Notes under the pieces: generated by a model | Seen by the model: only the letters and a program-made list of their open reading frames with translations | The model's database searches: none | Told to the model about the DNA's origin: nothing | Position numbers and translations under genes: made by a program | Shown: piece after piece, positions 38,277 through 63,095 of the stretch | How positions within the stretch are numbered: position 1 is the stretch's first letter | Layout of the letters: every line of letters starts with the position of its first letter | Assembly (NCBI GenBank): GCA_963931925.1 | Contig: OZ007579.1 | Coordinates: forward strand, 42,672,357 to 42,736,356 | Length of the DNA: 64,000 nt | From: Onchidella celtica | Lineage: Eukaryota > Mollusca > Gastropoda > Systellommatophora > Onchidiidae | Direction of reading: 5' to 3'

Positions 38277-38293
38277 CATCCCCCACCCCAGTT
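38277..38293 (-). promoter_or_regulatory. Element 1 polypurine tract
   Basis: On the minus strand AACTGGGGTGGGGGATG abuts the 3' LTR, the expected primer for plus-strand DNA synthesis. It is identical in element 0 and nearly so in element 2. Confidence 0.85.
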
Positions 38294-38885: not shown

Positions 38886-41800
38886 TTAAGGTAACCGTGA
38901 TAATAGGTCGGCATGGACATTATCTCCACCAGGAATGGCCTTTATAATGAAGCGGTATTCCTGAAGGGCCAGACTCCATCTGGTCAAACGAGCGTTCTTG
39001 GCTCGGTTCGATTTTAAAAATAACAACGGTTTATGGTCTGTCTCCATGACGAATTCCGTCATAAGTAGGTAGCGGGAAAACGCGTCTACGGCGTATACAA
39101 TCGCCAGGCATTCTCGCTCTATAATAGCGTATCTCTGCTCTCTCGGAAGTAATTTCCGGCTAGCGTACATACAAGGGCGCAATAAGCCATCTCTTTCCTG
39201 AAGCAAAACAGCTCCAATTCCTTGGTCCGACGCGTCAGTTCGGACGGTGAAGGTGCGTCTAATATTCGGTAGGATAAGCAGCGGCGAACTGGAGAACAGT
39301 TGCTGCACTGTCGCGAGCGCGGTGGCGCACTGCGTATTCCAGGTAATTTTGTTGGGTCTGTCTTTTCTTGTAAGATCGGATAACGGGGCCGTAAGGGCCG
39401 AAAAATTAGGAACGAATTTCCGATAATAGCTTAAGAAGCCTAACAGGCTACGAACCTGCTTCTTAGTATGAGGAGCCTGGAGTTTTAAAATCTTACTTAT
39501 CTTACTGTCGTCCGGTGTTTGGACGCCTTTGGCGATAGTATGTCCCAGAAAGTTAATCTGCGTATAACCCAGGAAGACTTTGCTAGGCTTAGCGGTAAGC
39601 CCGGCATCTCGAAGTTTACTAAGCACTTGACGAAGTGCTTCTAAGTGGCCTTTCCAATCCGTATGGAAAGCGCAAATGTCGTCAAAGCAGCTTAGGACGC
39701 ATGGTGTCTGCTGCAATAGGATGTTCATCATCCTCGCAAATGTCGCTGGTGCCGTTACGAGACCGAATGGCATGAATCTCCATTGCATGAGACCCATAGG
39801 TGTCTGAAACGCTGTGTACTGTTTACTGGCCTCTTCCATTGGGATTTGCCAGTAGCCTTTAGCCAAATCTATTTTCGAAAACACGGACGACTCGGCCAAT
39901 CGCGCAAATAGATCTTCCTGATTCGGGATAGGTTCAGCATCGTAAATGGTTAGAGCGTTAAGGTTCCTGTAATCGATACAAAATCTAACGGAACCGTCTG
40001 TTTTCTTTACTAGTACAATCGGCGAGCAGTAAGGGCTCGTCGAGCGCTCAATGACTCCCAAGCTGAGCATCTTTTCCACCTCGGACTGTATGGTGTCGTG
40101 CGCTTGCAGCGGGCGCGGGTAGGGTTTGACAAACACGGGTACGTCCGAGTGCAACCGGATGACGTGTTGAACTAAGGATGTTTTACCCGGCAAATCAGTG
40201 AATACTGGCGAAAACTCCCGAACAAGATTCATGATGACCTGTGTCTTACTTTGATCCAGCTCTGGATTAATATTAACGGAAGTCGGGTCCTCTGTGGCTT
40301 GCAAGGATAGGAGCGATCTAGTCATAGATAATGGCTCCCGGTCGTTGTCATCGATAGTGACCATCGCTGCGTTTGCTTGGGCCACAACATGGCATGAATG
40401 ATCGTGATGAGTTTGATCATCGGTAGGATACTTTTTCAACATATTAATATGGTACACCTTATCGTTACCACGTATGGTAATGAGATAATTAACTCTCGAG
40501 AGTCGCTTTTTAACTAGAAAGGGGCCTTTCCAAGTGAGGAGTAGCTTGTTATTCGTTTCTGGTAGCAGCATCAATGCCCGATCTCCGACTGACAGGGTTC
40601 TTAACCGGCTACCCCGATCGCGATATCCTATAAATGACCTGGTCCGTACGCATGCAAATTGTCGAGCCAGGTCGCATGCATTAACTATTCTATGTCGGAG
40701 ATCGACTATGTACTGATACGCGGATCGCGTATCAGGAACGTCGGTATCAGAACCGGCGTATAAATCGCGTAAAATGGCCATCGGGCCACGTGGTTTTCGA
40801 CCGTATAAAAGTTCAAACGGGGAAAAACCCGTTGTCGCATTTGGGAGTTCCCTATATGCGAACAAGATGGCCGGAAGTCGACGGTCCCAGTCACCAGGTC
40901 TATCGGCGGAAACGCGTGCCAGCATAGTTTTCATGGTGGCATTCCAGCGCTCGCAACAGCCATTGGACTGTGGATGGTATGGCGACGTAAGTTTCTGCCT
41001 AATGCCCGTGAGTTCCAATACTTTCCTGAAAAGGTCAGAGGTGAATTGCGGACCTCTATCGGACAATAATTCGGACGGGAATCCGACACGTGTGAATATG
41101 GTCACCAATGCCTCGGCGACGTGATCGGCCGATATTTCCTTTAAAGGGACAGCCTCAGGCCAACGGGTGGCATAATCGATTACTGATAGAATAAACCGAT
41201 GGCCTCTATCCGACTTCGGTAATGGGCCGACGATGTCGACGGCAACTCGCTGAAATGGAGTGGAAACCGGCGGCATCTCTTGTATAGGTGCCCGCGAAGT
41301 TTTTCCTTTGGAGGTTCTTTTCTGGCATGTATCGCAACGCGACACATAGCTATTTATGTCCCCGTAAACCCCGGGCCAAAAAAACTGAGACAGGACTCTC
41401 GATTTTGTTCTCGCTTTGCCTTGGTGGCCCGCCAATGGCGTGTCGTGCGCGAGGCGGGTGATGTCTCGGCGAAATGATCTCGGTATGACCAATTGCAAAA
41501 TAGTTTCGCGCTTTCCCCGAAAAACGCGATATAGGAGGTCGTCTTTAAGGCAGAACCTGGATGTATCCGGGTTGTCCGGATCAATCTTAGCAAAGAGGGG
41601 CTTTAGTGATGGATCTGTGCTCTGTTCGTTACGAAAAATCTCGGGGGTTACATCCAAATCGACGACAGGTGATCGTAATGTGTCGTCACTCTGGCGACGC
41701 GATTGTTGTCTTGTCGTGACACACGCAATGTCGTTATCATCCCAAATCCCGAGTTCGCAATCGGAGACGTCCTTTAAGTGGGGAATATTCCCAATGATTA

Positions 41801-42758
41801 GGTCGGCGACCGGATTTGGTAGCACGCAGGCCGTGACAACACCAGTTATAAACGGTGTGTCAACATATATTTCCGCCAAACGAAAATGTTCAACTGAACC
41901 ACCAAAAGTAATGCATGTCGCATCGCGATCCAGGAGTTGTGCAGGACGGACCAGTGATTCACGTACACCGACGGTCGTACAGCCTGAATCTCGCAATACG
42001 GATGCTCGTATGGCGTTTACTCGTCCCCCATACAATGTCAGCTCGCCTCGCTCGTGGAGGGCGGACATAACTGGAATAACTTTATCTACGGTTTCGGCAT
42101 TCCTAGTTCTGTAACCGCGGTTTTCGGTGAATGCTACAGAGCATGCATTTGCCGCATCTAATCTAACTCTGCATTGTCGCGCAATGTGGCCTCCGGCGCC
42201 ACATCTATAACAGTAGACTGGATTATCATCCCTTCGAGGTGTACCTCGATAAGAAGGAAATGTGGGCGCTTGATAGTAGTTGTTACGCGGTCCTCCGGTA
42301 GGGAAAGGACGTGTATATCGGGGTTCCCAGTCCCGAGAAAATTTATGGGGATTCGTTTGCCTCCTGCTAACCGGCGGCTCGGACCGTGGACGAACCTGCG
42401 GCGACTGTCGAAAGGGCTGTCTTGATTGTCTCGACGGTACCGGTGTCTTAGTAGCAGCGCCGGCGTAACACGGTTCGCTTACTTTAGCTTTAGCTAACGA
42501 TCGATTAGGGTGAGCCGCAGCATACCGTTCCGCTATCGATGTTATCTCGACGGTAGTTTTGGGGGCTTGTTCCTTAAAATGCGCCACCAGGTCCGTGTGG
42601 CAGGACATATATATTTGGTCTTTAATTATCAAATCATATAGTTTCTTGTAGTTTCCCTCTTCCACACCGGCTGAGTAGGTGGCGGAGGCGGTCCACGTAA
42701 GTAGAGAAATTCTCAGATGCCTCCGGCTTGCAATCGCGGAAACGCTTATGAAATCCAT
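38886..42758 (-). CDS. Element 1 pol (late gag, protease, integrase, RT, RNase H)
   Basis: A 1,290-codon frame. In order it holds the rest of gag with a zinc knuckle (CYRCGAGGHIARQC), a protease active site (VLRDSGCTTVGV) and the integrase HHCC finger (LAHDTPLAGHQ ... CDTCQKRT). The integrase core follows with VAVDIVGP, LSDRGPQF and NGCCERWN (DDE), then a GPF-type module (WKGPFLVKKRLS). Last come the RT (FCIDYRNLN, MPFGLVTAPATFARMM) and RNase H (RTDASDQGIGAVLLQE). Integrase precedes RT, unlike most Ty3/gypsy. The RT box reads SCFDDICAF where element 2 has SYFDDICIY, so the first aromatic is lost. The first codons overlap gag in another frame and are not the true start. Confidence 0.95.
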   Translation of the reverse strand: MDFISVSAIASRRHLRISLLTWTASATYSAGVEEGNYKKLYDLIIKDQIYMSCHTDLVAHFKEQAPKTTVEITSIAERYAAAHPNRSLAKAKVSEPCYAGAATKTPVPSRQSRQPFRQSPQVRPRSEPPVSRRQTNPHKFSRDWEPRYTRPFPTGGPRNNYYQAPTFPSYRGTPRRDDNPVYCYRCGAGGHIARQCRVRLDAANACSVAFTENRGYRTRNAETVDKVIPVMSALHERGELTLYGGRVNAIRASVLRDSGCTTVGVRESLVRPAQLLDRDATCITFGGSVEHFRLAEIYVDTPFITGVVTACVLPNPVADLIIGNIPHLKDVSDCELGIWDDNDIACVTTRQQSRRQSDDTLRSPVVDLDVTPEIFRNEQSTDPSLKPLFAKIDPDNPDTSRFCLKDDLLYRVFRGKRETILQLVIPRSFRRDITRLAHDTPLAGHQGKARTKSRVLSQFFWPGVYGDINSYVSRCDTCQKRTSKGKTSRAPIQEMPPVSTPFQRVAVDIVGPLPKSDRGHRFILSVIDYATRWPEAVPLKEISADHVAEALVTIFTRVGFPSELLSDRGPQFTSDLFRKVLELTGIRQKLTSPYHPQSNGCCERWNATMKTMLARVSADRPGDWDRRLPAILFAYRELPNATTGFSPFELLYGRKPRGPMAILRDLYAGSDTDVPDTRSAYQYIVDLRHRIVNACDLARQFACVRTRSFIGYRDRGSRLRTLSVGDRALMLLPETNNKLLLTWKGPFLVKKRLSRVNYLITIRGNDKVYHINMLKKYPTDDQTHHDHSCHVVAQANAAMVTIDDNDREPLSMTRSLLSLQATEDPTSVNINPELDQSKTQVIMNLVREFSPVFTDLPGKTSLVQHVIRLHSDVPVFVKPYPRPLQAHDTIQSEVEKMLSLGVIERSTSPYCSPIVLVKKTDGSVRFCIDYRNLNALTIYDAEPIPNQEDLFARLAESSVFSKIDLAKGYWQIPMEEASKQYTAFQTPMGLMQWRFMPFGLVTAPATFARMMNILLQQTPCVLSCFDDICAFHTDWKGHLEALRQVLSKLRDAGLTAKPSKVFLGYTQINFLGHTIAKGVQTPDDSKISKILKLQAPHTKKQVRSLLGFLSYYRKFVPNFSALTAPLSDLTRKDRPNKITWNTQCATALATVQQLFSSSPLLILPNIRRTFTVRTDASDQGIGAVLLQERDGLLRPCMYASRKLLPREQRYAIIERECLAIVYAVDAFSRYLLMTEFVMETDHKPLLFLKSNRAKNARLTRWSLALQEYRFIIKAIPGGDNVHADLLSRLP

Positions 42759-43398
42759 CTTCCGTATGTTGGAAACGCTTTAATAGCGCGGTCTTTAGAA
42801 TGTCATAGTCCCTAGCGTCATCAATAGTGAGGCTATGGAAAACTTCCAACGCTCTCCCTGTCAAAAGATTGGCGAGGCATGACGTGTACTCACTACGCTG
42901 CCATCCCGCGCAAACGGCATGGAGTTCGAAGCGGTGTAGGTAGGAATCAATACGATCAACCTTATCATTAAAGGTTGGCAATTTAGGCTTCGTTTTATTA
43001 TTGGAAGTAACTTCCGGAGCCCCGGTAGGTTGGGCTTGCTTCGCTTCTAACTGTTTCAAAGCGAGCTCGTACTCTCTTTGAGCCTGTTTTTCCGCGCGTT
43101 CCGCGGCTCTATCGTCTCGTTCCGCAGCTTTTTCTTGGCGTAATATCTCCGCGGCCTTTTCTTGGCGTAATATCTCCGCGGCCTTTTCTTGGCGTAATAT
43201 CTCCGCGGCCTTTTCTTGGCGTAATATCTCCGCGGCCTTTTCTTGGCGTAATATCTCCGCGGCCTTTTCTTCTCGTAATCTCTCCGCGGCCTTTTCTTCT
43301 CGTTCTTCTTTCAGTTTCTGGTCTACCCAAGAAGCACGCTGAGCTTCCAGTATGCCAAATGATTGGGCTAGTTCCAAATGTTTCTGTAGTTCGGCCAT
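42634..43398 (-). CDS. Element 1 gag, N-terminal part (frameshifted into pol)
   Basis: ATG at 43,398 starts MAELQKHLELAQSFGILEAQ. A Glu/Lys/Arg helix follows, with five exact EKAAEILRQ repeats, and then the capsid-like core (YLHRFELHAVCAGWQ, LLTGRALEVFHSL, ALLKRFQHTEDGFHKRF). The frame ends soon after STYVDRLRHLLSR, where element 2 continues uninterrupted. The homologous continuation is in the pol frame, so a small deletion near 42,665-42,672 separates them. Gag forms the particle that packages the element RNA. Confidence 0.9.
   Translation of the reverse strand: MAELQKHLELAQSFGILEAQRASWVDQKLKEEREEKAAERLREEKAAEILRQEKAAEILRQEKAAEILRQEKAAEILRQEKAAEILRQEKAAERDDRAAERAEKQAQREYELALKQLEAKQAQPTGAPEVTSNNKTKPKLPTFNDKVDRIDSYLHRFELHAVCAGWQRSEYTSCLANLLTGRALEVFHSLTIDDARDYDILKTALLKRFQHTEDGFHKRFRDCKPEASENFSTYVDRLRHLLSRCGRGKLQETI
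43134..43268 (-). repeat. 27-bp tandem repeat in element 1 gag
   Basis: Five copies of a 27-bp unit (CTTGGCGTAATATCTCCGCG and onward on plus) encode EKAAEILRQ in frame. Confidence 0.92.
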
Positions 43399-44570
43399 GA
43401 TATCGGTCGATAATGCGATATAATAATGTCCTAATCGAGGACAGCTTCTGAAAAATCTCTAACTTTATTCTCCCTTGAAGCAATTTATCAATTGCACTCT
43501 GCGGGTGTTCGTTCCTGCAGTATGAACGAAATTAACGAAATCAACAACAAACTGTACGTCTTAGTCAACCAAGTAGTGGTTGAGCTATCTCAGTGATCAC
43601 TTAACTCCACGTATTTCTCCTAATCCTCAAGCAGTCAGTCTACTGCTTCCGTGATTGGTCGTTAACTAACGATACCAATGTAATATTCCCAGTGTATTTT
43701 CCGTACACTCCTATCAGCGTTCCCTCTGCTATAAATCGGAATAAATCAATATTCACGATATTAACTTCCTTGGCTATACAGGCCTAACAACTCTAATATC
43801 CAGATTATCTCTCAACGTGCCCTAGACACGTGATTTATCCCAGGCAATAATATAGCAAGTATGAATACAAAATATAATAATGCAACACTATAATGGAAAA
43901 GAATTACATGGAGAGTAAGACGAGACTAACAGAAAGAACAAACGACAACAGACCTGACTAACCTGAAACTATCTACAAAAAGGTAAGAAAAAGAACAGGA
44001 GAGACGTCTTCCTAAAATACGAGGAAGATAGAACGCTAACAATCTATACGAATAACAGGTCCCTACAGAACTATTCAAGGCAAAGCATATCTCCTATCCG
44101 TTTTAAACGCCATCTAGATCTGCTAGTCTGGCAAAAAGAGGTATGCTGAGTCTCGATCCCTTCCAACCACCCGCCTATCTAATCTAACACAAAAGAAAAA
44201 TAATGCCTGTCAAAAGTAGGGGAGCTGGAACGACGAACCCCTCAAACGAAGACAAATACAGATGGTTCACTTAACTGGGCAAAATGGACTGGCTCTTTCC
44301 TTTGGTCCACAGCGCTGGTCTTGTCTTTTCCTGATGCTAGCTGTCAGGCCCTCGTAGTGGTCCCAGGATCAATGACGAGAGGACATGCCAGACATGTGGG
44401 GGAGAAACAAAAAAAAAAATCAGCAGTATACAAAACTATAAACTACAAAAATGACATAAATAACAGTGGAGTCTAGAGTGGTCGAAATGCAGCTGTTGAC
44501 GGGGTCCTCTTCAGATGATAGTAGTGTCCTCTAGATGTCAGAGGGTGACGGGTCCTCTTCAGATGTCAGT
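43399..44570 (-). other. Element 1 leader
   Basis: About 1.17 kb of untranslated leader between the primer-binding site and gag. It contains near-duplicated GGTCCTCTTCAGATG words at 44,500-44,570. No gene seen. Confidence 0.7.
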
Positions 44571-44583
44571 GGGGTCCCCTCCA
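44571..44583 (-). promoter_or_regulatory. Element 1 primer-binding-site candidate
   Basis: TGGAGGGGACCCC on the minus strand, two bases after the 5' LTR. The word is shared with element 0 and nearly with element 2. The primer tRNA was not identified. Confidence 0.7.
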
Positions 44584-44585
44584 GA

Positions 44586-45810
44586 TGTCACGAGCAGAGT
44601 TAGGGTCTTGGGGATGTTACGACTGCACGAGAGGCAGCTAACTCACACTCGGACACAACCACACAAGAAAAGTATTAAATAACTAGAGCGTATATATGTC
44701 AGGCCGGTCAGGCCATAGTTTACATAAATATTAATAACAAAACAAAAGACAATAGGGGTATATATTCAAACCAAAAAAACTCTAATTAATAACTTAACCA
44801 ATGATATTCATGTAACTATGGGGGTACTGCAATCAATAGCAAATAGGTATATTATACGAAACTAGATATCAATTTAAAGTGACAGTTGAGTCGCCACTGG
44901 CCAGTCGCCAGGCAAACTCTCCCTAAATCATATGGGCTTGAGTGTTAGGAGAGCCCAGTATGTTCAAAGCCTACAGAAGCACTCTTCGGCTTGTAGGTAA
45001 TTTAAGCAGTTGCCAAAAGACTATATTTTATGCACAATCACTATTCAATTCATCAACAATGTGCTATATTATTCCAATCATACTATGGCAATAGATCTAT
45101 GATACAGGACACTCGTGGTCGATTGCCAGCTGGGGTTTCCTTAGTCTTCTTATGAGGCTGTAGTTCTCTCTCTATCTCCGATCTCTATTATGCTTGAACA
45201 AATAAGATATATTACCATTGGTCACGCCTACTGGTAGGCGCGAACATCAATATAGCGCAGCGTGGGCTTTCAAAGGTCAGCCCACTCAGACCTTTCTTTC
45301 TAGAGCTCAGTCAGTCCGTTAGCAAGGACTTCTTGTCTTCAAAGCACACAGTTCAGGTACTGGTCAACCGGAGATACTTCACGACACGATGCTTCTGCTC
45401 GTCTGTATTCACCAAATCTGAACGTTACACGATGTTTTATACTATCTAACTACCCAGCGTGCTAGTCCGCTGGCCCAATTAGTTCAGCTATCTCATAGGT
45501 CGAAACCTCCCACCATTTTAATTGTAGTAATACGTCTGCACTATTCTACCAGCCAGTTAACGTGCAAAACTTGTCTAGTCATAATTAACAATGTCAACTA
45601 TCCCCACCTTGTTTCACCCCTACTCCATTACTTATTAATCACGAACATTAAAACCGACAAGCGTGAATCTAACAGTTTAACTTTACATTTATTTACTCAC
45701 CAACTATAATTGGCGAGGACCGTTCAAGGCCACCAGCCAATTTCTCATGGCCCTGGAAAAAAAAACAACTCACTCTCTGCGTGAGTTTTAACAACATCCG
45801 AATCATGACA
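44586..45810 (-). repeat. Element 1 5' LTR
   Basis: A 1,225-bp copy matching 37,052-38,276, with a TATA-like box at 45,435-45,441 (minus strand) that would drive the element transcript. Confidence 0.95.
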
Positions 45811-45815
45811 GTCTG

Positions 45816-46529
45816 AGTGGGCTGACCTTTGAAAGCCCACGCTGCGCTATTTTGATGTTCGCGCCTACCAGTAGGCGTGACCAATGGTAATATATCTTAT
45901 TTGTTCAAGCATAATAGAAGATCAGAGATAGAGAGAGAACCACAGCCTCATAGGAAGTCTAAGGAAACCCCAGCGGGCACTCGACGACGAGTGGCCTGTG
46001 TTATAGAATTATTTCCATAGTATGATTGAAGTAATATGGCACATTGTTGATGAATTGAATAATGATTGTGCATATATATAAATAGTTTTTTGCAACTGCG
46101 TAATTACCTACAAGCCGAAGTGTGCTTCTGTAGGCTTGGAACGTACTGGGCTCTCCTAACATTCAAGCCCATATGATTTAGGGAGAGTTTGCCTGGCGAC
46201 TGGCCAGTGGCGACTCAACTGTCACTTTAAATTGATATCTAGTTTCGTATAATATACCTATTTGCTATTGATTGCAGTACATCCAATAAGGAACCATAAT
46301 TACATGAATATCATAGATTAAGTTAGTAATTAGAATTTATTGCTTTGAATATACCTCTATTGTCTTTTGTTTTGTTTATTAATATTTATGTAAAACATGG
46401 CCTGACCGGCCTGACATATATAGATACTCTAGTTGTTTAATACTTTTCTTGTGTGGTTGTGTCCGAGTGTGAGTTAGCTGCCTCTCGTGCAGACGAATGC
46501 TCCCCAAGACCCTAACTCTGCTCGTGACA
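45816..46529 (+). mobile_element. Solo LTR (part 2 of 2)
   Basis: Continuation of 36,525-37,051 after element 1 and its GTCTG duplication. It ends CTCGTGACA and is followed by ACTAG. The total solo LTR is about 1,241 bp. Confidence 0.93.
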
Positions 46530-47682: not shown

Positions 47683-47751
47683 AGTGTTGTTGTTGTCAAT
47701 CCATACAGTCAGGTCATATGCCTCCCTCTTCTTCATCTCTGCCTTCACTCG
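47683..47751 (-). pseudogene. YqaJ/SWIM gene exon, 3' part (cut by element 3)
   Basis: The minus strand reads VKAEMKKREAYDLTVWIDNNT and ends at a splice donor. Joined in frame to the SWIM exon at 36,185 it runs straight into VTNAECKC, the expected order for YqaJ/SWIM proteins. Its 5' part lies across element 3 at 63,721 onward. Confidence 0.8.
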
Positions 47752-48371
47752 TGCAACAGCTGAGGTTGTTCTAGCACGTTATAGTAGGGGGGAGTTAGTT
47801 GATCTAACTACAACCCTTTAGAAAACGAAACTATTACAGCTGTAAAATAAATAAACACGAGAGCCGACGATAGATTAAATAATACTAAAGTTTAATAACT
47901 GTATAGTGAACAATAAATTACCAGGAAGACACCAGCGAAACTAAATATCTACGCCACACAAAAGGAAACTCACTTACTCACCGACCAACCACTCACACAG
48001 GTCTATATATATAAACATTCCTACAGAAAGTTCCCGAAATAAACGTTACCTTTGCCCTCGCACAAACTAACCAATCACGCATCAATACGTCATCAGGTTA
48101 CATCACTCAAGGCCAAATCTGGCGTAAACATTCGTATCCACAACGTTATCGAATATTCGGGAACATACTAATATTTACTGAACGAGTCAAAACACCTGAC
48201 AACAAGCGAGCGAGGAAACAAACTACTCACTAGAAAAGAAGGTCAGGTCACGGAGTACAGTACACTGTGGCGGTTGTCAACAATAAAATGGAAAAAGTAG
48301 TGGACACATGCTCAGCCACCAGCACAACAACAAAACCGGGGGAGGGCAAGGGGTAGCCCGCAGATGCTACA
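47752..48371 (-). repeat. Element 3 3' LTR
   Basis: 620 bp, TGCAACAGCTGAGG...GATGCTACA on plus; the other LTR begins TGTAACAG. TATATATA lies near 48,005-48,013. Confidence 0.93.
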
Positions 48372-48586
48372 CAACTCCCCAATTTAAGTTGAATATCTTT
48401 CAACTCCAAAAACATTATACAGCGTCTGCACTATCGTGAAATAATCTTATAGCACTCCCAATCTCACAAAGGTAGTTGCTAATTCTATTACAATTAATAA
48501 CAATTTCAGTGTCTTCCCGAATGTCATCACAAATACAATACAATGCAGTGTACTTTGCATCACTAATACCATAACTAATACAATAC
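48372..48586 (-). other. Element 3 3' region, distal to element 2
   Basis: It holds the polypurine-type stretch AATTGGGGAGTTG beside the LTR (minus strand), then untranslated sequence up to the element 2 insertion. Confidence 0.7.
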
Positions 48587-49919
48587 TGTTACGGGTTCGC
48601 CAAGGGGTGTGCCCTGCAGTGTTACGAGCTGGGTCCTCGAGTGTTACGAGTTCAAAGAAGGGTGTTACGTTGGGGATTACTAAATTATGGAATTTAGGTG
48701 TTCGACTGCATTTTTAATAAATATCGAGAGGTTTTAGAGATTACTCTGCCATACCATGCCACATACACTAATAACAATTTCGAGTAGGTTATATCAAGGA
48801 CCTTGTAGGGCCACAAATTTATTACTTAAAATTCCTAACAATTTCGTCTATCGTTTACATATTAAAAGACAACATTGCAGCATCAAATGAAAATACTAAA
48901 ATACATAACTATAAATCTCCTCTAGATCCTTAAGAGATTTGAAACTCTATATCATTCTGATTCATACACAGTTTACTTAGTAATTATTTATCTTCAGAAA
49001 TATAGACTGCCTACTATCTCACAAATGATATACTTAGGTCTCAGACGACAATATTAACTCATTTAACTGCTTATAAAGGATCAAACCGTCAAGACACACT
49101 GACGTAGTTAAGATAGATCTAGATCTGTTCTAGGATGGGCTGGCAATCCCCAGCCTCATCCAGACACATCAATTACAATTTCCAAATGTGTATATCAGTC
49201 ACTCTTTCTAGATCTTAATTGCAAGTAAAACTTTATGGTCTTGCATTCCTTTGGTCGCACTTCTACTGGAAAGTTAGGGTCAGATTCACATCATCTCGAA
49301 TCATTGTGATGAAACTTACGATTGGTTCCCTGAAACGATTCAGGGAACTGGAGAAAATAGCTGTGGGTAATTTTCATTGTCTATCCAGGACATAGACATG
49401 ACTTAACAGTCTGTTGGTTCTCTCTGGCTGAACCCCTAGCCGACGACCTTCGTAGCTGGAAGATCTACATGGAAGTGAGGTAGCATAAACATGTCACCGC
49501 TTATCTTCTGCAACTCACGTGACTGCTCAAATTTGATTGGTGCATCCACTTCGAGCTCCGCTCGCAGCGCCAATAGATTCTATTAATAGTAACAGACAAA
49601 GTCAGACCTAGGATGTCAAAACCTTTCGCAAAGTCTCTACACCCTAAACGTTTTATGTACGAATTTCTTCACTCCTTATTCGCCCCGTCTTTCCCTGTTA
49701 AAGTACACCCAAACCACGGGGTCGAAAACTGCATCGTCACTTGTTAATTTATCCATTCGTTCTATCTTGCCCCACTTTCTTTCCATCTCTAAGAAAAGCG
49801 TTACAAAAACAAACTGTCCACGGAAATAGTTCAAGGACGTTTGGACTGGCTAAAATCAATGATGCCATGTAATAAACAATGCGTGACCTAGCACGGCAAT
49901 TCAAATTCAAACCCTGACA
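48587..49919 (-). repeat. Element 2 3' LTR
   Basis: TGTTACGGG...CCCTGACA on plus. Four GTGTTACG words sit within the first 90 bp. Confidence 0.95.
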
Positions 49920-49935
49920 TATCCCCCACCCCAGT
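49920..49935 (-). promoter_or_regulatory. Element 2 polypurine tract
   Basis: ACTGGGGTGGGGGATA on the minus strand, next to the 3' LTR. Confidence 0.85.
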
Positions 49936-50600
49936 GAAAATTTTAAATAAAATTTACACGATAAGATCCAAGAAATCTCAAAGTTATTGTGGTAGGGGCT
50001 TAAGCAGTACTGTAGAAAGATGAGCCTTACTTGAGAAGAAAAATCTAACTAAGAACGTGCATATTGGATGGACAAAAAGCATACAATTATTGATGCCACG
50101 TTCTATAGAATTTATTCTATTTAAACATTCCTACTGCACACAATCAAAATTCTCAGAAACATCTATAATAATAATGAGTATATCACTGTATACTGCTGGA
50201 TTAAAGTATAACTATTATGAAATAATGAAGCCTTACTGAAGGAATAGGCTTATAATTATATAGTCAACACACACAATTGCTGCTTATATACACATTCACA
50301 CACAATATATTGTTAATTAAAATACTGTGGTATCCAATGGCAGCAGTAGCTCTGGTAGCTTGGTTTGCCATGTCTTCATCTCATTGACCCGCTGACAAGG
50401 GCGTCAGGTTTGCCAGAAGTTCAGGTCACAGTCAGGAATGACGCTGGTGGAAAAAAGGATATTCACAAAAAAAAGAAAGGTGGTAAAAATGGTTCATAAC
50501 GTAATGAACAAGATAAATGTGAATCCATCCACCGTCTAGAATTGAGGGGGACAAGCACTATCCAACCCCAATACAAGACACAACACTCTTTAATAGGAAA
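49936..50600 (-). other. Element 2 3' untranslated region
   Basis: 665 bp between the gag-pol stop and the polypurine tract; no additional gene seen. Confidence 0.7.
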
Positions 50601-53600
50601 TTAAATGAGACGTGACAAAATATCAGCTTGGGAATTGTCACCGCCAGGGATAGTACGGATTACAAACCGGTATTCCTGGAGTGCAAGACTCCATCTCGTT
50701 AATCGAGCATTTTTAGCCCTGTTAGTCTTTAAGAATAACAACGGACGATGGTCCGTTTCAATTATAAATTCAGACATGAGTAGATATCTCGAAAATGCGT
50801 TTACAGCAAAAATGATAGCGAGGCACTCTCGCTCGATAATTGCATAGCGGCATTCCCTATCTAGCAACTTGCGGCTGGCGTATAGACATGGCCGCAAGGT
50901 ATCGTCTCGTTCCTGTAATAACACAGCTCCCAATCCCTTGTCCGACGCATCAGTGCGGACAATAAATATGTGGTTTATGTCTGGTAGTATGAGAATGGGG
51001 GAAGTGGAAAACAATTGTTGAACGGTACGAAGTGTATCAGCACATTCGGTTGTCCATTTCACTTTATTAGGAAAATTCTTTCTTGTGAGGTCCGACAACG
51101 GAGCTGTAAGCGAAGAAAAATTTGGAATGAATTTCCTATAATAGTTAAGAAAGCCCAATAAACTACGAACTTCTTTCTTAGTTCGAGGTGGTTGGAGCTT
51201 TAAGATGGTAGTTATCTTCTTGTCATCAGGAGTCTGAACGCCGTGGGCAATTGTATGGCCCAGAAAATTAATTTTATTGTAGCCTAAAAATACCTTACTG
51301 GGTTTCGCCGTAAGGCCAGCTCGACGAAGAGCAATAAAAACTTGTCGTAGGGCTGCGAGGTGGCCCGACCAATCGGCTTCATAAATACAAATGTCGTCAA
51401 AATACGACAATACGGAACTCATACCCTGGAGCAATATTGTCATCATACGGGCGAAAGTAGCAGGGGCTGTAACTAACCCGAAAGGCATATAGCGCCACTG
51501 CATAAGACCCAACGGAGTCTGAAAAGCGGTATATTGCTTGCTATTCTCATCAAGCGGAATTTGCCAATAACCTTTGGAAAGATCAATTTTAGAAAAAATC
51601 GTTGCCCTAGCTAACTGAGCAAAAAGATTCTCCTGGTTGGGAATCGGTTCCGCGTCATATATCGTAACCTCATTAAGTTTACGATAGTCAATACAAAAAC
51701 GCACGGTATCATCTTTTTTTTTCACTAAGACGATGGGTGAGTTATATGGACTCGTCGATCGCTCTATCACTCCCAGGTGAAACATGTTACGTACCTCGGT
51801 TATTATAGTCTGTTGTGCGTGCTGCGGACGCGGATATGGTTTAACAAAGACGGGTACATCCGTCTTTAATCTTATAACATGCTGTACCAAAGAAGTATTA
51901 CCTGGTAGATCAGTAAAGACAGTAGTAAACTCGTTAAGCAAATCTCTTAAATCTTGCCTTTGCGATTCAGATAAATCTGGATTTATATTCACATCCGAAG
52001 TGTTTTCAGAAGATCGAAGTGCGGGGATTGAATTCTCTATCTTAATAGGATCATCATCGTCAACTGAAACCAAGGCCGCATTGGCCTGAACAATGACATT
52101 TCGGCGATTATTCTGGCGATTATCATCGTCGGACAGGTACTGCTTTAACATATTTATATGGAAGACTTTGTCCTGTCCTCGAATCTTGATAAGATAATTT
52201 ACTCGAGAAAGTCTCTTTAGAACTTTAAAAGGTCCCTTCCATGTAAGAAGGAGTTTATTTTTCGTTTCCGGAAGGAGAACAAGAGTTTGGTCTCCGACGG
52301 TCAAGGTTCGCAATCGGCTACCTTGATCACGATATTGTTTATAAAGACTGGCATGCGCAGCCGAAGATTTTTGTGCGAGCTGACATGCGTTAAGAATTCG
52401 ATGGCGCAAGTCTACAACGTATTGATATGCAGACCGCGTATCATTGTCGTCGGTGTCTGATCCGGCGAATAAATCATGGAGTATGGCCATTGGACCACGC
52501 GGTTTACGACCATACAATAATTCGAAGGGAGAAAAACCCGTCGATGCGTTCGGTAGTTCTCGGTATGCAAAAAGAATAGCGGGGAGTTGTCGATCCCAAT
52601 CACTCGGTTTGTCGGCGGAAACTCGTGCAAGCATACTTTTCATAGTAGCATTCCACCGTTCACAGCAGCCATTAGACTGTGGGTGGTATGGAGATGTCAA
52701 TCTTTGTTTAATCCCGACCAATTCCAAGACTTTCTTAAAAAGCTCAGAGGTAAACTGTGGACCTCTGTCCGATAAAATTTCAACTGGAAACCCAAGACGC
52801 GAAAAAACAGTAATAAGAGCTTCAGCGACATGATCAGCTGAAATGTCTTTTAGCGGAATGGCCTCTGGCCAACGGGTTGCGTAGTCAATGACAGAAAGTA
52901 TAAAACGATGTCCTCTGTCTGACTTGTGTAGAGGACCAACTATATCTACGGCAACGCGCTCAAATGGTCTGGAAACCATTGGCATCTCCTGCAGAGGAGC
53001 TCGCGATGCTCTTCCTTTAGGAGTACGTCTCTGACATACGTCACATGTTGATACAAACCGGTTTACATCTGCGTAAATACTGGGCCAAAAAAATTGCGAT
53101 AGTATTCGAGACTTAGTTCTGGCCTTTCCCTGGTGACCCGCCAAGGAAGTGTCATGCGCGAGACGAATAATGTCGCGACGAAAAGATCTCGGTACTACAA
53201 GCTGCATAATGGCCTCTCGCTTATTCCGAAAATTACGATATAATAAGTCATCTTTAATAAGAAACTTAGAGGTATCCGGTGCGGTAGGATCAACCTTAGC
53301 AAACAAATGTTTCAATGTGGGATCTGAATGTTGCTCATCATGAAATGCACTAGACGTTATGTTCACTTCAATAGTAGGATTACTCAATGGACTGTCTGCT
53401 CGTCGAATCGATTGTAGGCGTGTTGTCGCACAAGCAACACTCTCATCCTCAGTCCAAATTTCCAAGTTACCGATAGGAAACTTATTTACTTGAGGTACAT
53501 TCCCTATGATTACATCAGCCACTGGATTAGGCAGTACACATGCAGTAACAGTACCTGTGAGAAAAGGTGTATCAATATAAACTTCTGCAAGACGGAATCG

Positions 53601-55097
53601 CTCTACAGATCCGCCAAAAGTAATACAAGTTACCTCCTTGTCCAAAAATTGTGTTGGACGGACTAGTGACTGTCGAACGCCGATAGTCGTGCATCCGGAG
53701 TCACGTAGAACAGAAGCGCGAATCGCGTTCACGCGGCCCTGGTAAAATGTTAATTCCCCCAGTTCATGTAGGGCGGACATGACTGGAATAGTCTTTGATT
53801 GCGATGAAGATTTATTAGTATAACCAACATCTGTATAGGGTGTAGATTGTACAGAGCAGGCATTTGCCGCTCCCATTTTTACGGTACAAAATCTTCGCAT
53901 GTGGCCGAACTGATTACACTTGAAGCACATAATACGGTGTGAGTTGTGTCCACGATAAGGCCGATCCTGCGGTCTATTATAATTATGATTATCATCAAAA
54001 TACACTCGTCGAGGCGGTCTCTGAGGCCGGTTATATTGTTGGCCTGTGTAGTTGCCACGATAATATGGGCGAGGCTCGTAAAAAGAATAAGTCTGATATC
54101 CTCGACGCGGGGATACATTACCTCGATTCGGAAAATCTCTCTGTCTACAAAAAGGCGGCTCTGATTGAAAGCGTGAATTTGGGGCCTGACGACGAGTCGG
54201 CCTTGAACGATCGTGTCCGGTTGGCGCTCCTTTGCCTACGTTGGCATAACACGGTGTTGTAGTTGAAGGCTTTGCCAAAGGACGATTTGGGTGGGCGGAC
54301 GCGTATCGTTCGGCGCACGATGTGATTTCTTCAGAGGATGTCGGAGCCCTCTCTTTAAGGTGGGCGACTAAATCGGAATGACATGCGGTATAGATTTGGT
54401 CCTTTAAGACCAAATCGTAAAGTTGGGAATAATTTCCGGTAGTTACGTTCGCGAGCTCAATCCAGCGATCTAAATAATGTTTCAACCGATTGACATAAGT
54501 TGAGAAATTTTCAGATGGCTCAGGTTTACATGAGCGAAATCTTTGATGGAAGCCATCCTCGGTATGCTGGAATCGCTTAAGCAGTGCTGTTTTAAGCTTG
54601 TCATAATCGTTGGCATCTTCTACTTTAAGGCTGTGAAATACCTCTAAAGCCTTACCTGTTAATAAATTGGACAGGCATGAACTGTACATCGCCTGCTGCC
54701 ATCCGACGCATTTAGCGTGTAACTCGAACCGATGTAAATATGCGTCGATCCGGTCGAGTTTTTCATTAAATGGTGGTAGTTTTGGTTTAGTAGCATAAGA
54801 ATTGGTGGCAGTAGTGGGTGTTACAAGCGATTGTTGCTCTAACTTTTTCATTGCGAGTTCATGCTGTCTTTCCTTTTCTCTCTCTCTTTCTTTCTCCCTT
54901 TCTCTTTCTCTTTCCTTTTCTCTTTCTACTTCTTTTTCTCTTTCTCTTTCTTCTTTTTCTCTTTCTCTTTCTCTTGCTTCTTTTCGATCCTCGCGCTCTC
55001 GGTCTTGTTGTACGTGTCGTTCGCACCACGCGGCGCGTTCTTCCTCTGGTATGCCCAGAACTTTGGCAGATTCTAAATATTTAAGAAACTCAGCCAT
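50601..55097 (-). CDS. Element 2 gag-pol polyprotein
   Basis: ATG at 55,097 to the stop at 50,601 gives 1,498 residues in one frame. Order: Arg/Glu-rich helix (about 32-78); capsid-like gag (about 105-280); one zinc knuckle CFKCNQFGHMRRFC (391-404); protease DSG (466-468); integrase HHCC finger (H648, H655, C685, C688); DDE core D718, D777, E813 with 35 residues between the last two; GPF module near 953; RT about 1080-1290 with SYFDD (Asp 1234-1235); RNase H from about 1379 to the end. Integrase lies before RT, the Gmr1-type order. All catalytic residues checked are present. With no stop between gag and pol, the Gag:Pol ratio must be set some other way, for example by protein processing. Confidence 0.97.
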   Translation of the reverse strand: MAEFLKYLESAKVLGIPEEERAAWCERHVQQDREREDRKEAREREREKEEREREKEVEREKEREREREKEREREKERQHELAMKKLEQQSLVTPTTATNSYATKPKLPPFNEKLDRIDAYLHRFELHAKCVGWQQAMYSSCLSNLLTGKALEVFHSLKVEDANDYDKLKTALLKRFQHTEDGFHQRFRSCKPEPSENFSTYVNRLKHYLDRWIELANVTTGNYSQLYDLVLKDQIYTACHSDLVAHLKERAPTSSEEITSCAERYASAHPNRPLAKPSTTTPCYANVGKGAPTGHDRSRPTRRQAPNSRFQSEPPFCRQRDFPNRGNVSPRRGYQTYSFYEPRPYYRGNYTGQQYNRPQRPPRRVYFDDNHNYNRPQDRPYRGHNSHRIMCFKCNQFGHMRRFCTVKMGAANACSVQSTPYTDVGYTNKSSSQSKTIPVMSALHELGELTFYQGRVNAIRASVLRDSGCTTIGVRQSLVRPTQFLDKEVTCITFGGSVERFRLAEVYIDTPFLTGTVTACVLPNPVADVIIGNVPQVNKFPIGNLEIWTEDESVACATTRLQSIRRADSPLSNPTIEVNITSSAFHDEQHSDPTLKHLFAKVDPTAPDTSKFLIKDDLLYRNFRNKREAIMQLVVPRSFRRDIIRLAHDTSLAGHQGKARTKSRILSQFFWPSIYADVNRFVSTCDVCQRRTPKGRASRAPLQEMPMVSRPFERVAVDIVGPLHKSDRGHRFILSVIDYATRWPEAIPLKDISADHVAEALITVFSRLGFPVEILSDRGPQFTSELFKKVLELVGIKQRLTSPYHPQSNGCCERWNATMKSMLARVSADKPSDWDRQLPAILFAYRELPNASTGFSPFELLYGRKPRGPMAILHDLFAGSDTDDNDTRSAYQYVVDLRHRILNACQLAQKSSAAHASLYKQYRDQGSRLRTLTVGDQTLVLLPETKNKLLLTWKGPFKVLKRLSRVNYLIKIRGQDKVFHINMLKQYLSDDDNRQNNRRNVIVQANAALVSVDDDDPIKIENSIPALRSSENTSDVNINPDLSESQRQDLRDLLNEFTTVFTDLPGNTSLVQHVIRLKTDVPVFVKPYPRPQHAQQTIITEVRNMFHLGVIERSTSPYNSPIVLVKKKDDTVRFCIDYRKLNEVTIYDAEPIPNQENLFAQLARATIFSKIDLSKGYWQIPLDENSKQYTAFQTPLGLMQWRYMPFGLVTAPATFARMMTILLQGMSSVLSYFDDICIYEADWSGHLAALRQVFIALRRAGLTAKPSKVFLGYNKINFLGHTIAHGVQTPDDKKITTILKLQPPRTKKEVRSLLGFLNYYRKFIPNFSSLTAPLSDLTRKNFPNKVKWTTECADTLRTVQQLFSTSPILILPDINHIFIVRTDASDKGLGAVLLQERDDTLRPCLYASRKLLDRECRYAIIERECLAIIFAVNAFSRYLLMSEFIIETDHRPLLFLKTNRAKNARLTRWSLALQEYRFVIRTIPGGDNSQADILSRLI
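54871..54990 (-). repeat. Arg/Glu repeat in element 2 gag
   Basis: TTTCTCTTTC-type simple sequence on plus encodes an Arg/Glu/Lys helix (EREREKE units). It is at the same place as the charged repeats in elements 1 and 3 but with a different unit. Confidence 0.85.
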
Positions 55098-56610
55098 GAT
55101 ATGTTAAAGTCTGTAAAGTTAGTAAATATTTACCCAATGTTACGGTATATCGCGGTATCACTATCTTATATGAACAGATATTGTCTGTTAATATTAATTC
55201 AGTGTCTTATGTTAGCACTGCTTCGCGAAAAGAACGTTCTATCTCTCTCTCTCAAATTTATAGGCAGTATCACTTAAACTGCAAACACTTTATCTCTCTC
55301 TGAAAATTACAAGCAGTATCACTTAAACTGCAAACACTTTATCTCTCTCTGAAAATTACAAGCAGTATCACTTAAACTGCAAAAACTTTATCTCTCTCTC
55401 TCTCAATATAAATTCTAGTAAGGCAGTGCCGTCTATCCGTTGCTCCCACTGCAATAAAATACTATATATCGCCTTTACTGCGATAAATTAATGTCTCGAG
55501 TGATCACTCTCAAAATTTACGTCTCTCTCAACGCGACGAACCAGTGTCCTCTGTTATCACTGTCAAAAACGAATCGCTCTCTCAATGCGATGAATCAAAA
55601 ATATATCTCTCTCTCAACACGACAAATTTGAAATATCTCTGTGTTCTCAAAACACTCTCAAAATTCTCTCTCTTCTCAAAACACGTACACGCAGTGTCTT
55701 CTGTTACCACTGCAAAATTATTCTCTCTAGATCTATCTTCAACGTGAAATTGTCACGTGAACCAAAAATTTATTATATTCCTCTCTCACATATGTCAATA
55801 CCAGATTACAATTCAACGTGGTTTTAGCACGTGAAACACCTCAGGCATATATTGTAAACATATCAATGTTAGTATAGTAGTTTAAAGTTTATAAGCAAAA
55901 AAAATACAATAAACAGGACGTATACTGACGAGTAAAACGAACGATAACAGACCCTACAAGTCCTAACTTATATTACAGATAGTTTAAGAAGAAAACAGGA
56001 GAGACATCTTCCTAAAGAAATGTGAGGAAGGAAAAGAACGCCACAATCTATACGAATAATGGATCCCTAATAGAACTATTCACAGAGAAGCAAATCCCCC
56101 CGAGTTATTTTAAATAGCCACCAAGGCCTCCAATATCCTTCGTAATGGCAAAGAAGATATGCTAACCTATGATCCCAACCAACCTCCCGCACTTAAACTA
56201 AACATATAGTAAATAGTAAAATGGCCTGGAACAATACACACAGAGCGGAAAGTACGTCGCCCTCCCCAAGACTGTTAGATAGATGGTTCACTTAACTTCG
56301 TTTTTTTGAGGAATTCAGATGTTAATATCCTCAATCCATAGCTCCAAGCCCAAAACTGTATTTCTGTCTGAGGTAGATCTGGATGATGAAAGGGTTCCCT
56401 CGCCGGTGTCCACGGGTCAATGGGATGTTGAATTCACCATATGAAATTGAAACACAATATTAAATTAGTACAAATTGTCTAACATCGATAATAAAAAGGC
56501 CTGAAAAGATAATATTACAAGAGTACAATATTAAATGATGGAATAAAAAAAATACAATAGGTTTTAAAATAATCTAACTAAGTGGCATGGCGTTATTAAA
56601 GTTCTTTTAA
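55098..56610 (-). other. Element 2 leader
   Basis: 1.5 kb of untranslated leader, rich in TCTCTC and containing a 49-bp tandem repeat. No gene recognised. Confidence 0.7.
55264..55400. repeat. 49-bp tandem repeat in element 2 leader
   Basis: Three copies start at 55,264, 55,313 and 55,362 with GCAGTATCACTTAAACTGCA, a unit with short inverted ends (GCAGT/ACTGC) that could form a small hairpin. Confidence 0.9.
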
Positions 56611-56623
56611 GGGTCCCTCTCCA
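56611..56623 (-). promoter_or_regulatory. Element 2 primer-binding-site candidate
   Basis: TGGAGAGGGACCC on the minus strand, one base after the 5' LTR; close to the word in elements 0 and 1. Confidence 0.65.
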
Positions 56624-56624
56624 G

Positions 56625-57957
56625 TGTTACGGGTTCGCCAAGGGGTGTGCCCTGCAGTGTTACGAGCTGGGTCCTCGAGTGTTACGAGTTCAAAGAAGGG
56701 TGTTACGTTGGGGATTACTAAATTATGGAATTTAGGTGTTCGACTGCATTTTTAATAAATATCGAGAGGTTTTAGAGATTACTCTGCCATACCATGCCAC
56801 ATACACTAATAACAATTTCGAGTAGGTTATATCAAGGACCTTGTAGGGCCACAAATTTATTACTTAAAATTCCTAACAATTTCGTCTATCGTTTACATAT
56901 TAAAAGACAACATTGCAGCATCAAATGAAAATACTAAAATACATAACTATAAATCTCCTCTAGATCCTTAAGAGATTTGAAACTCTATATCATTCTGATT
57001 CATACACAGTTTACTTAGTAATTATTTATCTTCAGAAATATAGACTGCCTACTATCTCACAAATGATATACTTAGGTCTCAGACGACAATATTAACTCAT
57101 TTAACTGCTTATAAAGGATCAAACCGTCAAGACACACTGACGTAGTTAAGATAGATCTAGATCTGTTCTAGGATGGGCTGGCAATCCCCAGCCTCATCCA
57201 GACACATCAATTACAATTTCCAAATGTGTATATCAGTCACTCTTTCTAGATCTTAATTGCAAGTAAAACTTTATGGTCTTGCATTCCTTTGGTCGCACTT
57301 CTACTGGAAAGTTAGGGTCAGATTCACATCATCTCGAATCATTGTGATGAAACTTACGATTGGTTCCCTGAAACGATTCAGGGAACTGGAGAAAATAGCT
57401 GTGGGTTATTTTCATTGTCTATCCAGGACATAGACATGACTTAACAGTCTGTTGGTTCTCTCTGGCTGAACCCCTAGCCGACGACCTTCGTAGCTGGAAG
57501 ATCTACATGGAAGTGAGGTAGCATAAACATGTCACCGCTTATCTTCTGCAACTCACGTGACTGCTCAAATTTGATTGGTGCATCCACTTCGAGCTCCGCT
57601 CGCAGCGCCAATAGATTCTATTAATAGTAACAGACAAAGTCAGACCTAGGATGTCAAAACCTTTCGCAAAGTCTCTACACCCTAAACGTTTTATGTACGA
57701 ATTTCTTCACTCCTTATTCGCCCCGTCTTTCCCTGTTAAAGTACACCCAAACCACGGGGTCGAAAACTGCATCGTCACTTGTTAATTTATCCATTCGTTC
57801 TATCTTGCCCCACTTTCTTTCCATCTCTAAGAAAAGCGTTACAAAAACAAACTGTCCACGGAAATAGTTCAAGGACGTTTGGACTGGCTAAAATCAATGA
57901 TGCCATGTAATAAACAATGCGTGACCTAGCACGGCAATTCAAATTCAAACCCTGACA
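56625..57957 (-). repeat. Element 2 5' LTR
   Basis: A 1,333-bp copy practically identical to 48,587-49,919; the one difference noticed is A/T near 49,367/57,407. Confidence 0.95.
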
Positions 57958-57962
57958 AATAC

Positions 57963-58445
57963 CGTCATTGCTTCCCAATAGTAAACAGTAGGCCTACTAG
58001 TCAAAATAACACAACGCCACCACTGTGGTGAAACAATGGTCAATGATATTATTACAAATCATATAAGGTGAAACGATGGCCCATCGTTTACATAATGCTT
58101 CGTGCACGAATCATAGCATATAACTTGTTGTACATAACATGGTTATCTCCATCATATTAGGTCAAAACAAGTTACAACATTGCAATATAACACAAACACT
58201 GCTTGCTCGCAGTCCCCATTTGGGTTACATTTTCCAAAAATTACACCAAGTTCCATTGGTAACTAATATGACATAGCATAAAATCAAAATGTGACTAACA
58301 CATCATGACTCTCTATCAGCCATCAATTCAATATTCAGTCACAGATGAATTATGTCCCCAATTACAGTACAATACTGCCGTCCTAGAAATTCATCTAGTA
58401 GGCAAAAGTATGGGTTACAATGCATTTTACTGATAGTGTACTACT
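57963..58445 (-). other. Element 3 3' untranslated region, proximal to pol
   Basis: Untranslated sequence between the pol stop and the element 2 insertion point; no gene seen. Confidence 0.65.
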
Positions 58446-61265
58446 TTAAAATACCCTGCTCAGGAAATCGGCACAGACATTTTCTCTGCCTTTTACATGG
58501 TGAATCCTGAATCGATAAGACTGTAAAAATAAACTCCATCGTAATAACTTTGGGCTGTCAAACTTGGCAGAGTTCAAAAACTCTAATGACCGATGGTCAG
58601 TTTGGAGCACAAACTCCTTTCCATACAAATACAAAGTAAACTTTTTTACAGCCCAAACAATAGCTAAACATTCGCGCTCTGAGACCGAATATTTTGTCTC
58701 ACGAGGCAATAGCTTACGACTAGCATATGCCACAGGGTACAACTTTCCCTCGTGTTCCTGCATAAGACTAGCGCCTAATCCGCGATCTGATGCATCAGTT
58801 GCTAAGACAAAATCTTTGGGAAAATCTGGCAAACATAACACGGGTTTGGAGATAATGACATTCTTCAAAGAGGTGTACGCTTTCTCCTGCGTTTCATCCC
58901 ACTGAACTATATTGGGCTGACCCTTTCTAAGTAAATCAGACAATGGTGATGCAATCGCTGAAAAGTTAGGAATAAATTCATGGTAATATCCCACTAATCC
59001 TAAGAATGCTTTCACTTCCTTCTTAGTGGTGGGTCTGGGTGCGTCTCGTACCTTACATACATTCTCTTCTAACAGGCCAATCATACCTTCTCCCACTAAG
59101 TGTCCAACAAAGTCTACTTCAGACGTTCCAATCAGACACTTCGATGGTCTTGCAGTTAATCCAGCTTGGTCCATCCTCTGCAGTAAGTCCTTGAGAGTCT
59201 TCACATGCTCGTCGAATGTCTCTGTATGAATCAGCAGGTCGTCCACATATGCTGTCACATTGTTCATTCCACGGATCAATGGCTTTACGATCCTGTTCAG
59301 CGTGGCTCCTGAGTTCATCATCCCAAAAGGCATCCGAATGAATTCATAGTGTTCGCCCATGGTGACGAACGCCGTCTTGGGAATGTCTTGCTCTCGAACT
59401 TTCACTTGCCAGTATCCCTTGCTCAGGTCAATCCGAGAGAATAATTTTCCTCTCGAGAGACTCTGAAACACTTCTAATGGCGCTGCTGTCGGATGAGGGT
59501 CGAATACTGTGATCTTGTTTAACCTCCTGTAGTCGATGCAGACTCGGTTGGATCCGTCCTTCTTCTTGACGACAACAATAGGTGAAGCATAAGCTGATGA
59601 GCTCCTTCGAATGATGCCCAGCCGTTCCATGGTGCTAAGCTCCTCCTTCAAGGAGTCGCGCATAGCGTAGGGCACCGGGTATGGTCGTTGACGAACTGGT
59701 ACTTCTGTCGTCAGGTCGATGCGATGTTCACCCAACTGACAGCATCCAGGGAGATTGGTGAAGACGTGCTGGTAATTCTTCACCACATCGCAGAGTTCTT
59801 GACGTTGTTCCGATGTCAGTTGCGTTCCATACTGGACATCTCTGTAGCCTTCATTCTGGTTCCAGCTTCCTAGGTCGGCAAGGTCCTCCGTCGTTCCACC
59901 GTTGTCGCCTTCCAGGTCGCAGTCCTCGATGATTGTCATGCCAGCTGACTCCACGGGTTGACTCTTGTCCATCATGTCGTCCTCTGCCAGTACAGTCTCA
60001 GCACTATCACCGCCGCCGTCCTTTATGGCGTTGACATGTTCAGGCGTGGTATCTCTCCTACTGTTGTCCATCCCACACATCTCGGTCACAATAGGTCTCG
60101 GTTCCATTGCCACTGCTGCTGCTTTTGACGTCCTTGGAATGTATCTCTTGAGGAGGTTGGCGTGCAAGGTCTTTTCTTTTGCACCCATCTTGACTCTATA
60201 GTCGTTAACACCGACAACTGAGACTACCTTATATGGTCCCTTCCATTGGACTAGGAGCTTGTTAGTGTTCGTCGGCAGTAGCACCAACACTTCATCTCCG
60301 GGGCGGAACTTCCTCTCTCGCGCCTTCCGGTCGTAGTAGGTCTTCTGTCTACCTTGAGCCTTGGAGAGTTCTTCCGTCGCTAACTTCCATGTGTCCTCCA
60401 GCCTCTCACGTAGTTCCATGACGTACTGGTAACTGGTCTTCGTTTCCGGCTCCTCTACGACCTTGGTCCATAGTTGTCGTAAGATGTGCATTGGTCCTCT
60501 CACAGTTCTCCCATACAGCAACTCGAATGGGGCAAACTTGGTCGACTCTTGGGGAACTTCACGATATGCGAAGAGCAGCGGGTTGATGTATCTGTGCCAC
60601 TGCTTGGGTTGCTCTGCGCACAGTCGTCTCAATGTTTTCTTCAGCGTGCCGTTGAATCGCTCCACCAACCCGTTGCACATAGGGTGGTAGACTGTAGTGG
60701 TCGACTGTCGAATTCCCAGTAGTCTATTCGTTTCCTTCATGACATCTGACATAAACTGGGTCCCATGGTCCGACAAGATCTCTTCGGGCACACCCAAACG
60801 GCTGTAGATGTTCACTAAGGCTTCTGCTACCGTTTCTGCGTCGAGCTTCTTCAAGGGTGTGGCTTCGGGGTAACGAGTAGCGTAGTCTATGTACACCAGG
60901 ATATACCGATGTCCACCTTCACTTGGGGGGTCGATATGTCCTACTAAGTCCACGGCCACTCGCCTAAATGGTACGTCCTCTACTGGCATACTCTGCAAGT
61001 GCACCTTTGGGGTCGCTCCTTTGTTCACCGTCCTCTGGCATATGTCGCATGAGCGGCAGTATCTCGCGACGTCACCTTCAATTCCAGGCCAATAAAAATT
61101 GCTCATAACTCTGTCTTTGGTTTTCTTCACGCCGAGGTGTCCTCCGACGATCGAGTCGTGGGCTACATTCAATACATACTCCCTCAGTTTCTCGGGTAGT
61201 ACCACTTGCCTTATAACCGTCGCCTGTCTCAGGTCCTTGTAGATCCGGTACAGTACTCCTCATGT
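58446..61265 (-). CDS. Element 3 pol (integrase, RT, RNase H)
   Basis: The open frame runs upstream of its first long recognisable part (61,205) to about 61,265, where it overlaps gag. Counting from 61,205: HHCC finger (H16, H23, C53, C56), DDE integrase with D86 (VAVDLVGH), D146 (LSDHGTQF) and E182 (NGLVERFNGT), and a GPY/F-type module (WKGPYKVVSVVGVNDY). An acidic spacer follows, then RT (VCIDYRRLN, MPFGMMNSGATLNRIV, AYVDDLLIH) and RNase H (ATDASDRGLGASLMQE, QTDHRSLEFL) to residue 919. Integrase again precedes RT. Catalytic residues look complete. There is no ATG at the frame start, so expression depends on a shift from the gag frame or the frame is damaged. Confidence 0.94.
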
Positions 61266-62986: not shown

Positions 62987-63074
62987 GTTGTAGATAGCTT
63001 GTCGATGATATTCTTACAATAAATTATGTAAATAAATCTAGTAATTTTGATCTGGTCCGCTCGAATATGGTCGG
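62987..63074 (-). other. Element 3 leader
   Basis: A very short untranslated leader (under 110 bp between LTR and gag ATG), in contrast to more than 1.1 kb in elements 1 and 2. Confidence 0.75.
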
Positions 63075-63092
63075 ATCCCGGACGAGCCCCCA
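63075..63092 (-). promoter_or_regulatory. Element 3 primer-binding site, tRNA-Pro type
   Basis: The minus strand reads TGGGGGCTCGTCCGGGAT, 18 bases, three bases after the 5' LTR. From knowledge, this is the tRNA-Pro complement used as primer site by murine leukaemia-type retroviruses, so tRNA-Pro is the expected primer. This fixes strand and LTR boundary. Confidence 0.93.
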
Positions 63093-63095
63093 ATA

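Follow-up and report, generated by a model that had tools for sequence, protein, structure and literature searches.

In retroviruses, BEL/Pao elements and most Gypsy elements, the reverse transcriptase (RT) is encoded before the integrase, and in Ty1/copia elements the integrase is encoded before the RT. Cod Gmr1 and its deuterostome relatives were reportedly described by Goodwin and Poulter in 2002. In the available portions of three papers, Gmr1-type Gypsy elements are characterized by an integrase located upstream of the RT (PMC6238403, PMC8220671, PMC3587641). Similarly partial texts place Gmr1 elements in decapods, where they were reported as the first in protostomes (PMC3587641), in the annelid Lamellibrachia (PMC8220671), in frogs (PMC4131045), and in tetraodontiform fish (PMC11117352). 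An initial annotation of the DNA studied here had stated that the group was first described mainly from deuterostomes, a picture that is dated in view of the decapod and annelid elements. Another paper, in its accessible part, counts Gmr1 among the clades present in several phyla; its own search of annelids did not recover it (PMC8556966). For molluscs, a survey of 989 Gypsy elements (a total given in PMC8556966) names, in its accessible portions, a C-clade, an AB-clade, CsRN1, Cigr-1, Tor2, and 16 MolGy clades, with Gmr1 appearing in the background and not among the clades listed (PMC6238403). Among the papers listed in literature searches for Gmr1, none was found to report a member from a mollusc.

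Three LTR retrotransposons from a gastropod

The window is a stretch of 64,000 nucleotides from the gastropod Onchidella celtica. Three LTR retrotransposons, designated E1, E2, and E3, were delimited in it, with the following features.

36525-37051 and 45811-46529 (span 36525-46529), forward strand: lone LTR of the E1 family, 91-96% identical to the E1 LTRs
37052-45810, reverse strand: E1, LTR retrotransposon of 8759 bp (self-comparison and flank reading); perfect 5-bp target duplication GTCTG
37052-38276 and 44586-45810, reverse strand: E1 LTRs, 16 mismatches in 1225
38955-40010, reverse strand: E1 RT and RNase H (Pfam)
40431-41486, reverse strand: E1 integrase (H2C2, rve, p58_C), upstream of the RT (Pfam and motifs)
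42634-43398, reverse strand: initial part of E1 gag (Retrotrans_gag), in a frame different from the pol frame at 38886-42758
47752-63715, reverse strand: E3, LTR retrotransposon split by E2 (self-comparison and flank reading); perfect 5-bp target duplication ACTCG
47752-48371 and 63096-63715, reverse strand: E3 LTRs, 7 mismatches in 620
48587-57957, reverse strand: E2, LTR retrotransposon of 9371 bp nested in E3; perfect 5-bp target duplication AATAC
48587-49919 and 56625-57957, reverse strand: E2 LTRs, 1 mismatch in 1333
50601-55097, reverse strand: E2 gag-pol, one unbroken frame of 1498 codons from gag to RNase H
50670-51725, reverse strand: E2 RT and RNase H (Pfam)
52143-53195, reverse strand: E2 integrase, upstream of the RT (Pfam and motifs)
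58515-59570, reverse strand: E3 RT and RNase H (Pfam)
60144-61196, reverse strand: E3 integrase, upstream of the RT and in a frame other than that of gag-protease (Pfam and motifs)
61229-62986, reverse strand: E3 gag and protease site; the gag has a SCAN-like capsid and two zinc knuckles, and the protease site reads LRDTGC
63072-63092 (ends approximate), reverse strand: E3 primer site TGGGGGCTCGTCCGGGATCC, 3 bases from the 5' LTR

The range first annotated, 38886-61265, contains the pol genes; the whole elements extend beyond it to the limits listed above. Translations and Pfam matches gave the order gag, protease, integrase, RT, RNase H for E1, E2, and E3 alike. In the E1 pol frame (1290 residues), H2C2/rve matched residues 425-596 and RVT_1/RT_RNaseH residues 917-1268; the corresponding ranges were 635-806 and 1125-1476 in E2 (1498 residues) and 4-175 and 546-897 in E3 (919 residues). 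The initial annotation had claimed an integrase before the RT in all three elements, and the Pfam order in each pol frame confirms this; its HHCC/DDE/GPF block was likewise found ahead of the RT in 3 of 3, as an HHCC motif, a D2-E spacing of 35, and WKGPF/Y. All LTRs start with TG and end with CA, which, together with a tRNA primer site, a polypurine tract, and a short target duplication, is the structure of a Ty3/Gypsy element, as are the Gypsy-type RT-RNase H and the integrase with a GPF/Y module.

The elements fall into two lineages, as had been proposed. E1 and E2 are 77% identical in the RT and 78% in the integrase, each encode one zinc knuckle and the protease site LRDSGC, and carry TGGAG-type primer sites 1-2 bases from the LTR (TGGAGGGGACCC in E1 and TGGAGAGGGACCC in E2), whereas E3 is 43-46% identical to them in these two domains, encodes two knuckles, and has a primer site that we take to be of the tRNA-Pro type. 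The RT active site reads CFDD in E1 versus YFDD/YVDD in E2 and E3.

E2 sits in E3 past the end of the RNase H and ahead of the 3' LTR; its whole frame and near-identical LTRs suggest that it moved recently. Self-comparison and flanks placed E1 within the lone LTR of its own family, in the opposite orientation; ACTAG is the flanking repeat of that lone LTR itself. The frame change inside E1 gag was found to be a broken frame from translations and flank reading. In E3, the frame changes between protease and integrase, just ahead of the integrase. A programmed frameshift was considered and rejected: no slippery heptamer was found at 61201-61320 and the nearest relative, P0002, has one frame, which makes a broken frame the likelier reading of the sequence.

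All three elements contain a tandem DNA repeat near the gag N-terminus, with a 27-bp unit in E1 (43121-43298), a 6-bp unit in E2 (54867-54975), and 27/48-bp units in E3 (62768-62879); the encoded stretch is charged and rich in E/K/R/A. Just inside the 5' LTR of E1 (44501-44590), a decayed 22-bp unit, which covers the region of the primer site as well as the bases that begin the LTR edge, is repeated about four times.

Relatives, module order, and trees

Relatives were gathered by RT similarity, taking the best 120 of 2841 proteins from one search and the best 120 of 4100 from another. Among these 240 best matches, a sampling in which rarer RT-first relatives could be missed, 221 were integrase-first, 3 were RT-first (from Cordylochernes, Solea, and Ascaphus), and 16 had an RT without an integrase. 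If an integrase match of at least 200 residues was required, the counts among the 240 were 199 integrase-first versus 3 RT-first. Integrase-first proteins among the best matches came from the molluscs Littorina (25 of 26), Plakobranchus (7 of 10), Ylistrum (2), Physella, Pecten, Haliotis, and Argopecten (1 each), from the deuterostomes Lytechinus (2), Saccoglossus, Asterias, and Diadema (1 each), and from the coral Oculina, Amphibalanus, and Armadillidium (1 each), the last carrying a warning of possible contamination in its source record. The single proteins listed from Elysia and Pelmatolapia (0 of 1 integrase-first each) contained the RT only. One apparent integrase-first protein, P0144, proved to be a gene model in which RT-first elements are fused and was counted as RT-first. 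Four E3 relatives (P0074, P0078, P0081, and P0103) encode gag and RT with no detectable integrase between them, and a fifth (P0110) retains only the last 80 integrase residues; judged from their sequences, these are possible integrase-less derivatives.

For E1, E2, and E3, the top integrase-first relative among the best matches clearly outscored the top RT-first relative in both domains; for E3, the scores were 608 versus 304 bits in the RT and 599 versus 236 bits in the integrase. Proteins from the other molluscs resemble the three elements in being integrase-first (Plakobranchus, Littorina, Physella, Pecten, Ylistrum, Haliotis, and Argopecten) and belong to different families, with RT identities among the best matches of up to about 60% to E1/E2 and about 66% to E3. 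The closest solved relative is Ty3 of yeast, which matched the RT part at 1.4e-75 and, in the same chain, the integrase part at 5.1e-30; it differs in having the RT before the integrase.

Control Gypsy loci were fetched using an RT alignment of E2, E3, and three less related matches, two of which are known to have the RT followed by the integrase (P0052 and P0196) and one of which contains the RT only (P0129). This search resulted in 38 loci. A single one came from viral contigs; the other 37 were in records of prokaryote genomes, where they probably represent eukaryotic contamination. All 30 of the loci with both domains were RT-first and the other 8 had the RT only. RT-first references were also sought in viral contigs with three single sequences, none of which yielded a relative. 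The residue preceding the catalytic D in the protease was surveyed in 157 integrase-first proteins, 25 of which had no recognized site; an arginine was present in 122 of the remaining 132, versus 0 of the 8 sites recognized in 12 RT-first records.

Trees of the RT and of the integrase were built from 43 of 193 integrase-first and 22 of 31 RT-first sequences with both domains, with preference given to spread and to named hosts. Ty3, the only named reference, fell on the RT-first side of both, and P0137 was omitted as a likely chimera. One branch separated integrase-first from RT-first sequences, with support values of 100/99 (RT) and 99/95 (integrase), and a single change of order sufficed in 100% (RT) and 98% (integrase) of 200 bootstrap trees. 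In both trees, E1 and E2 were sisters near P0122, P0124, and P0123 (Plakobranchus), E3 was sister to P0002 and then P0005, and the integrase-first sequences from Saccoglossus, Asterias, and Lytechinus shared the branch with all three elements. The trees are not rooted outside Gypsy, the attachment of the outgroup differs between them, and the integrase tree contains many long RT-first branches, for which joining of long branches is a concern. P0133/P0143 and P0189 were placed differently by the two domains. An exchange of integrases within the group, involving these sequences and Littorina rows, was considered; when two groups from the RT tree were imposed on the integrase data, AU tests gave p values of 0.065 and 0.053, near rejection, and so narrowly retained a shared history. 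A conflict between the two trees is thus not established, though not far off.

Origin of the order and probable affinity to Gmr1

We consider it very likely that E1, E2, and E3 are Ty3/Gypsy elements and that they represent two lineages within a single old group, in whose ancestor one rearrangement put the integrase between protease and RT. The trees of two genes favor a single origin of the order, and the protease arginine, from a third part of pol, agrees with them; the initial annotation had taken the order as ancestral to both lineages, and the one supported branch in each tree upholds this. In the RT trees, the elements did not scatter among RT-first clades. Two separate moves of the integrase, one in the E1/E2 lineage and one in the E3 lineage, would fit the low identity of 43-46% between the lineages and the differing attachment of the outgroup, but one change is enough on both trees at high support and the protease arginine is common to both lineages, which makes two moves very improbable. 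That the order is an artefact of assembly or rearrangement might be suggested by the broken frames of E1 and E3; we give this next to no credence given the unbroken frame of E2, the three LTR pairs each with a 5-bp duplication, and the 221 like-ordered proteins from other records among the 240 best matches. An error of assembly in pol, raised in the initial annotation, is implausible on the same grounds. Assignment to Ty1/copia, whose module order is alike, is practically negligible: Pfam gave RVT_1 and RT_RNaseH, a different RT family, the copia-type RVT_2 was absent from the match lists of E1, E2, and E3, and the best solved relative is Ty3.

We infer that the three elements belong to the group named after Gmr1, which was compared by description. 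They share with it, as far as the accessible texts describe it, a Gypsy-type RT and an integrase upstream of the RT, and in both domains they group with integrase-first elements of deuterostomes, apart from RT-first Gypsy; they differ in their gastropod host and in falling into two diverged lineages whose primer sites are not alike. It is possible, if unlikely, that they form an integrase-first group distinct from the one containing cod Gmr1: Ty3 is the one named reference in the trees, Gmr1 being known here by description, and the kinship of many Gypsy clades is unclear in the available portions of the mollusc survey (PMC6238403). Against such a separation, integrase-first elements of sea urchin, starfish, and hemichordate fall inside the same branch, and the papers, in the parts available, call Gmr1 the integrase-first Gypsy clade.

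Under the favored reading of a single ancestral rearrangement, Gag-Pol would be made as a polyprotein and presumably cut apart by the aspartic protease, so that the integrase could change position without loss of function, and the new order would have been inherited by the whole integrase-first group. Primed by a tRNA, the RT would copy the RNA, and the integrase would insert the DNA, giving the 5-bp target duplication; insertions with such duplications are present at E1, E2, and E3, and cleavage of Gag-Pol and activity of the elements are presumed. From the order usual in retroviruses, BEL/Pao and most other Gypsy elements, the integrase-first arrangement would be derived within Gypsy, not ancestral.

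The novelty is modest, as the kind itself is already known: a mollusc that harbors two diverged Gypsy lineages of the integrase-first type next to one another. Two genes and a protease signature point to a single origin of this order. The results suggest that module order in pol is stable once changed and that surveys based on the RT alone can overlook the integrase-first group. The case is about evenly balanced for a broader proposal, in which integrase-first Gypsy elements would make up a major, old, and largely unrecognized part of mollusc retrotransposons, each genome holding several lineages; some of the published mollusc Gypsy clades defined by RT-RNase H alone would be integrase-first, and either the swap would have occurred before corals, molluscs, arthropods, and deuterostomes diverged or the group would have moved between them since.

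Elsewhere in the window

A host frame at 13988-18982 spans 1664 codons from stop to stop. It has 16 protein matches, the best named being from Physella (53%), Lymnaea (50%), Bradybaena (46%), and Aplysia (45%), carries no Pfam label in these relatives, and is common to heterobranch snails and slugs. These matches mark the host as a heterobranch gastropod. By eye, a 730-codon frame at 28843-31035 encodes a LINE-type reverse transcriptase, and two adjoining frames at 33810-34580 appear to be the remnant of a Harbinger-type transposase. A 133-bp tandem repeat is present at 3655-4047, and the sequence at 23147-23566, 19 kb away, is 86-88% identical to it.
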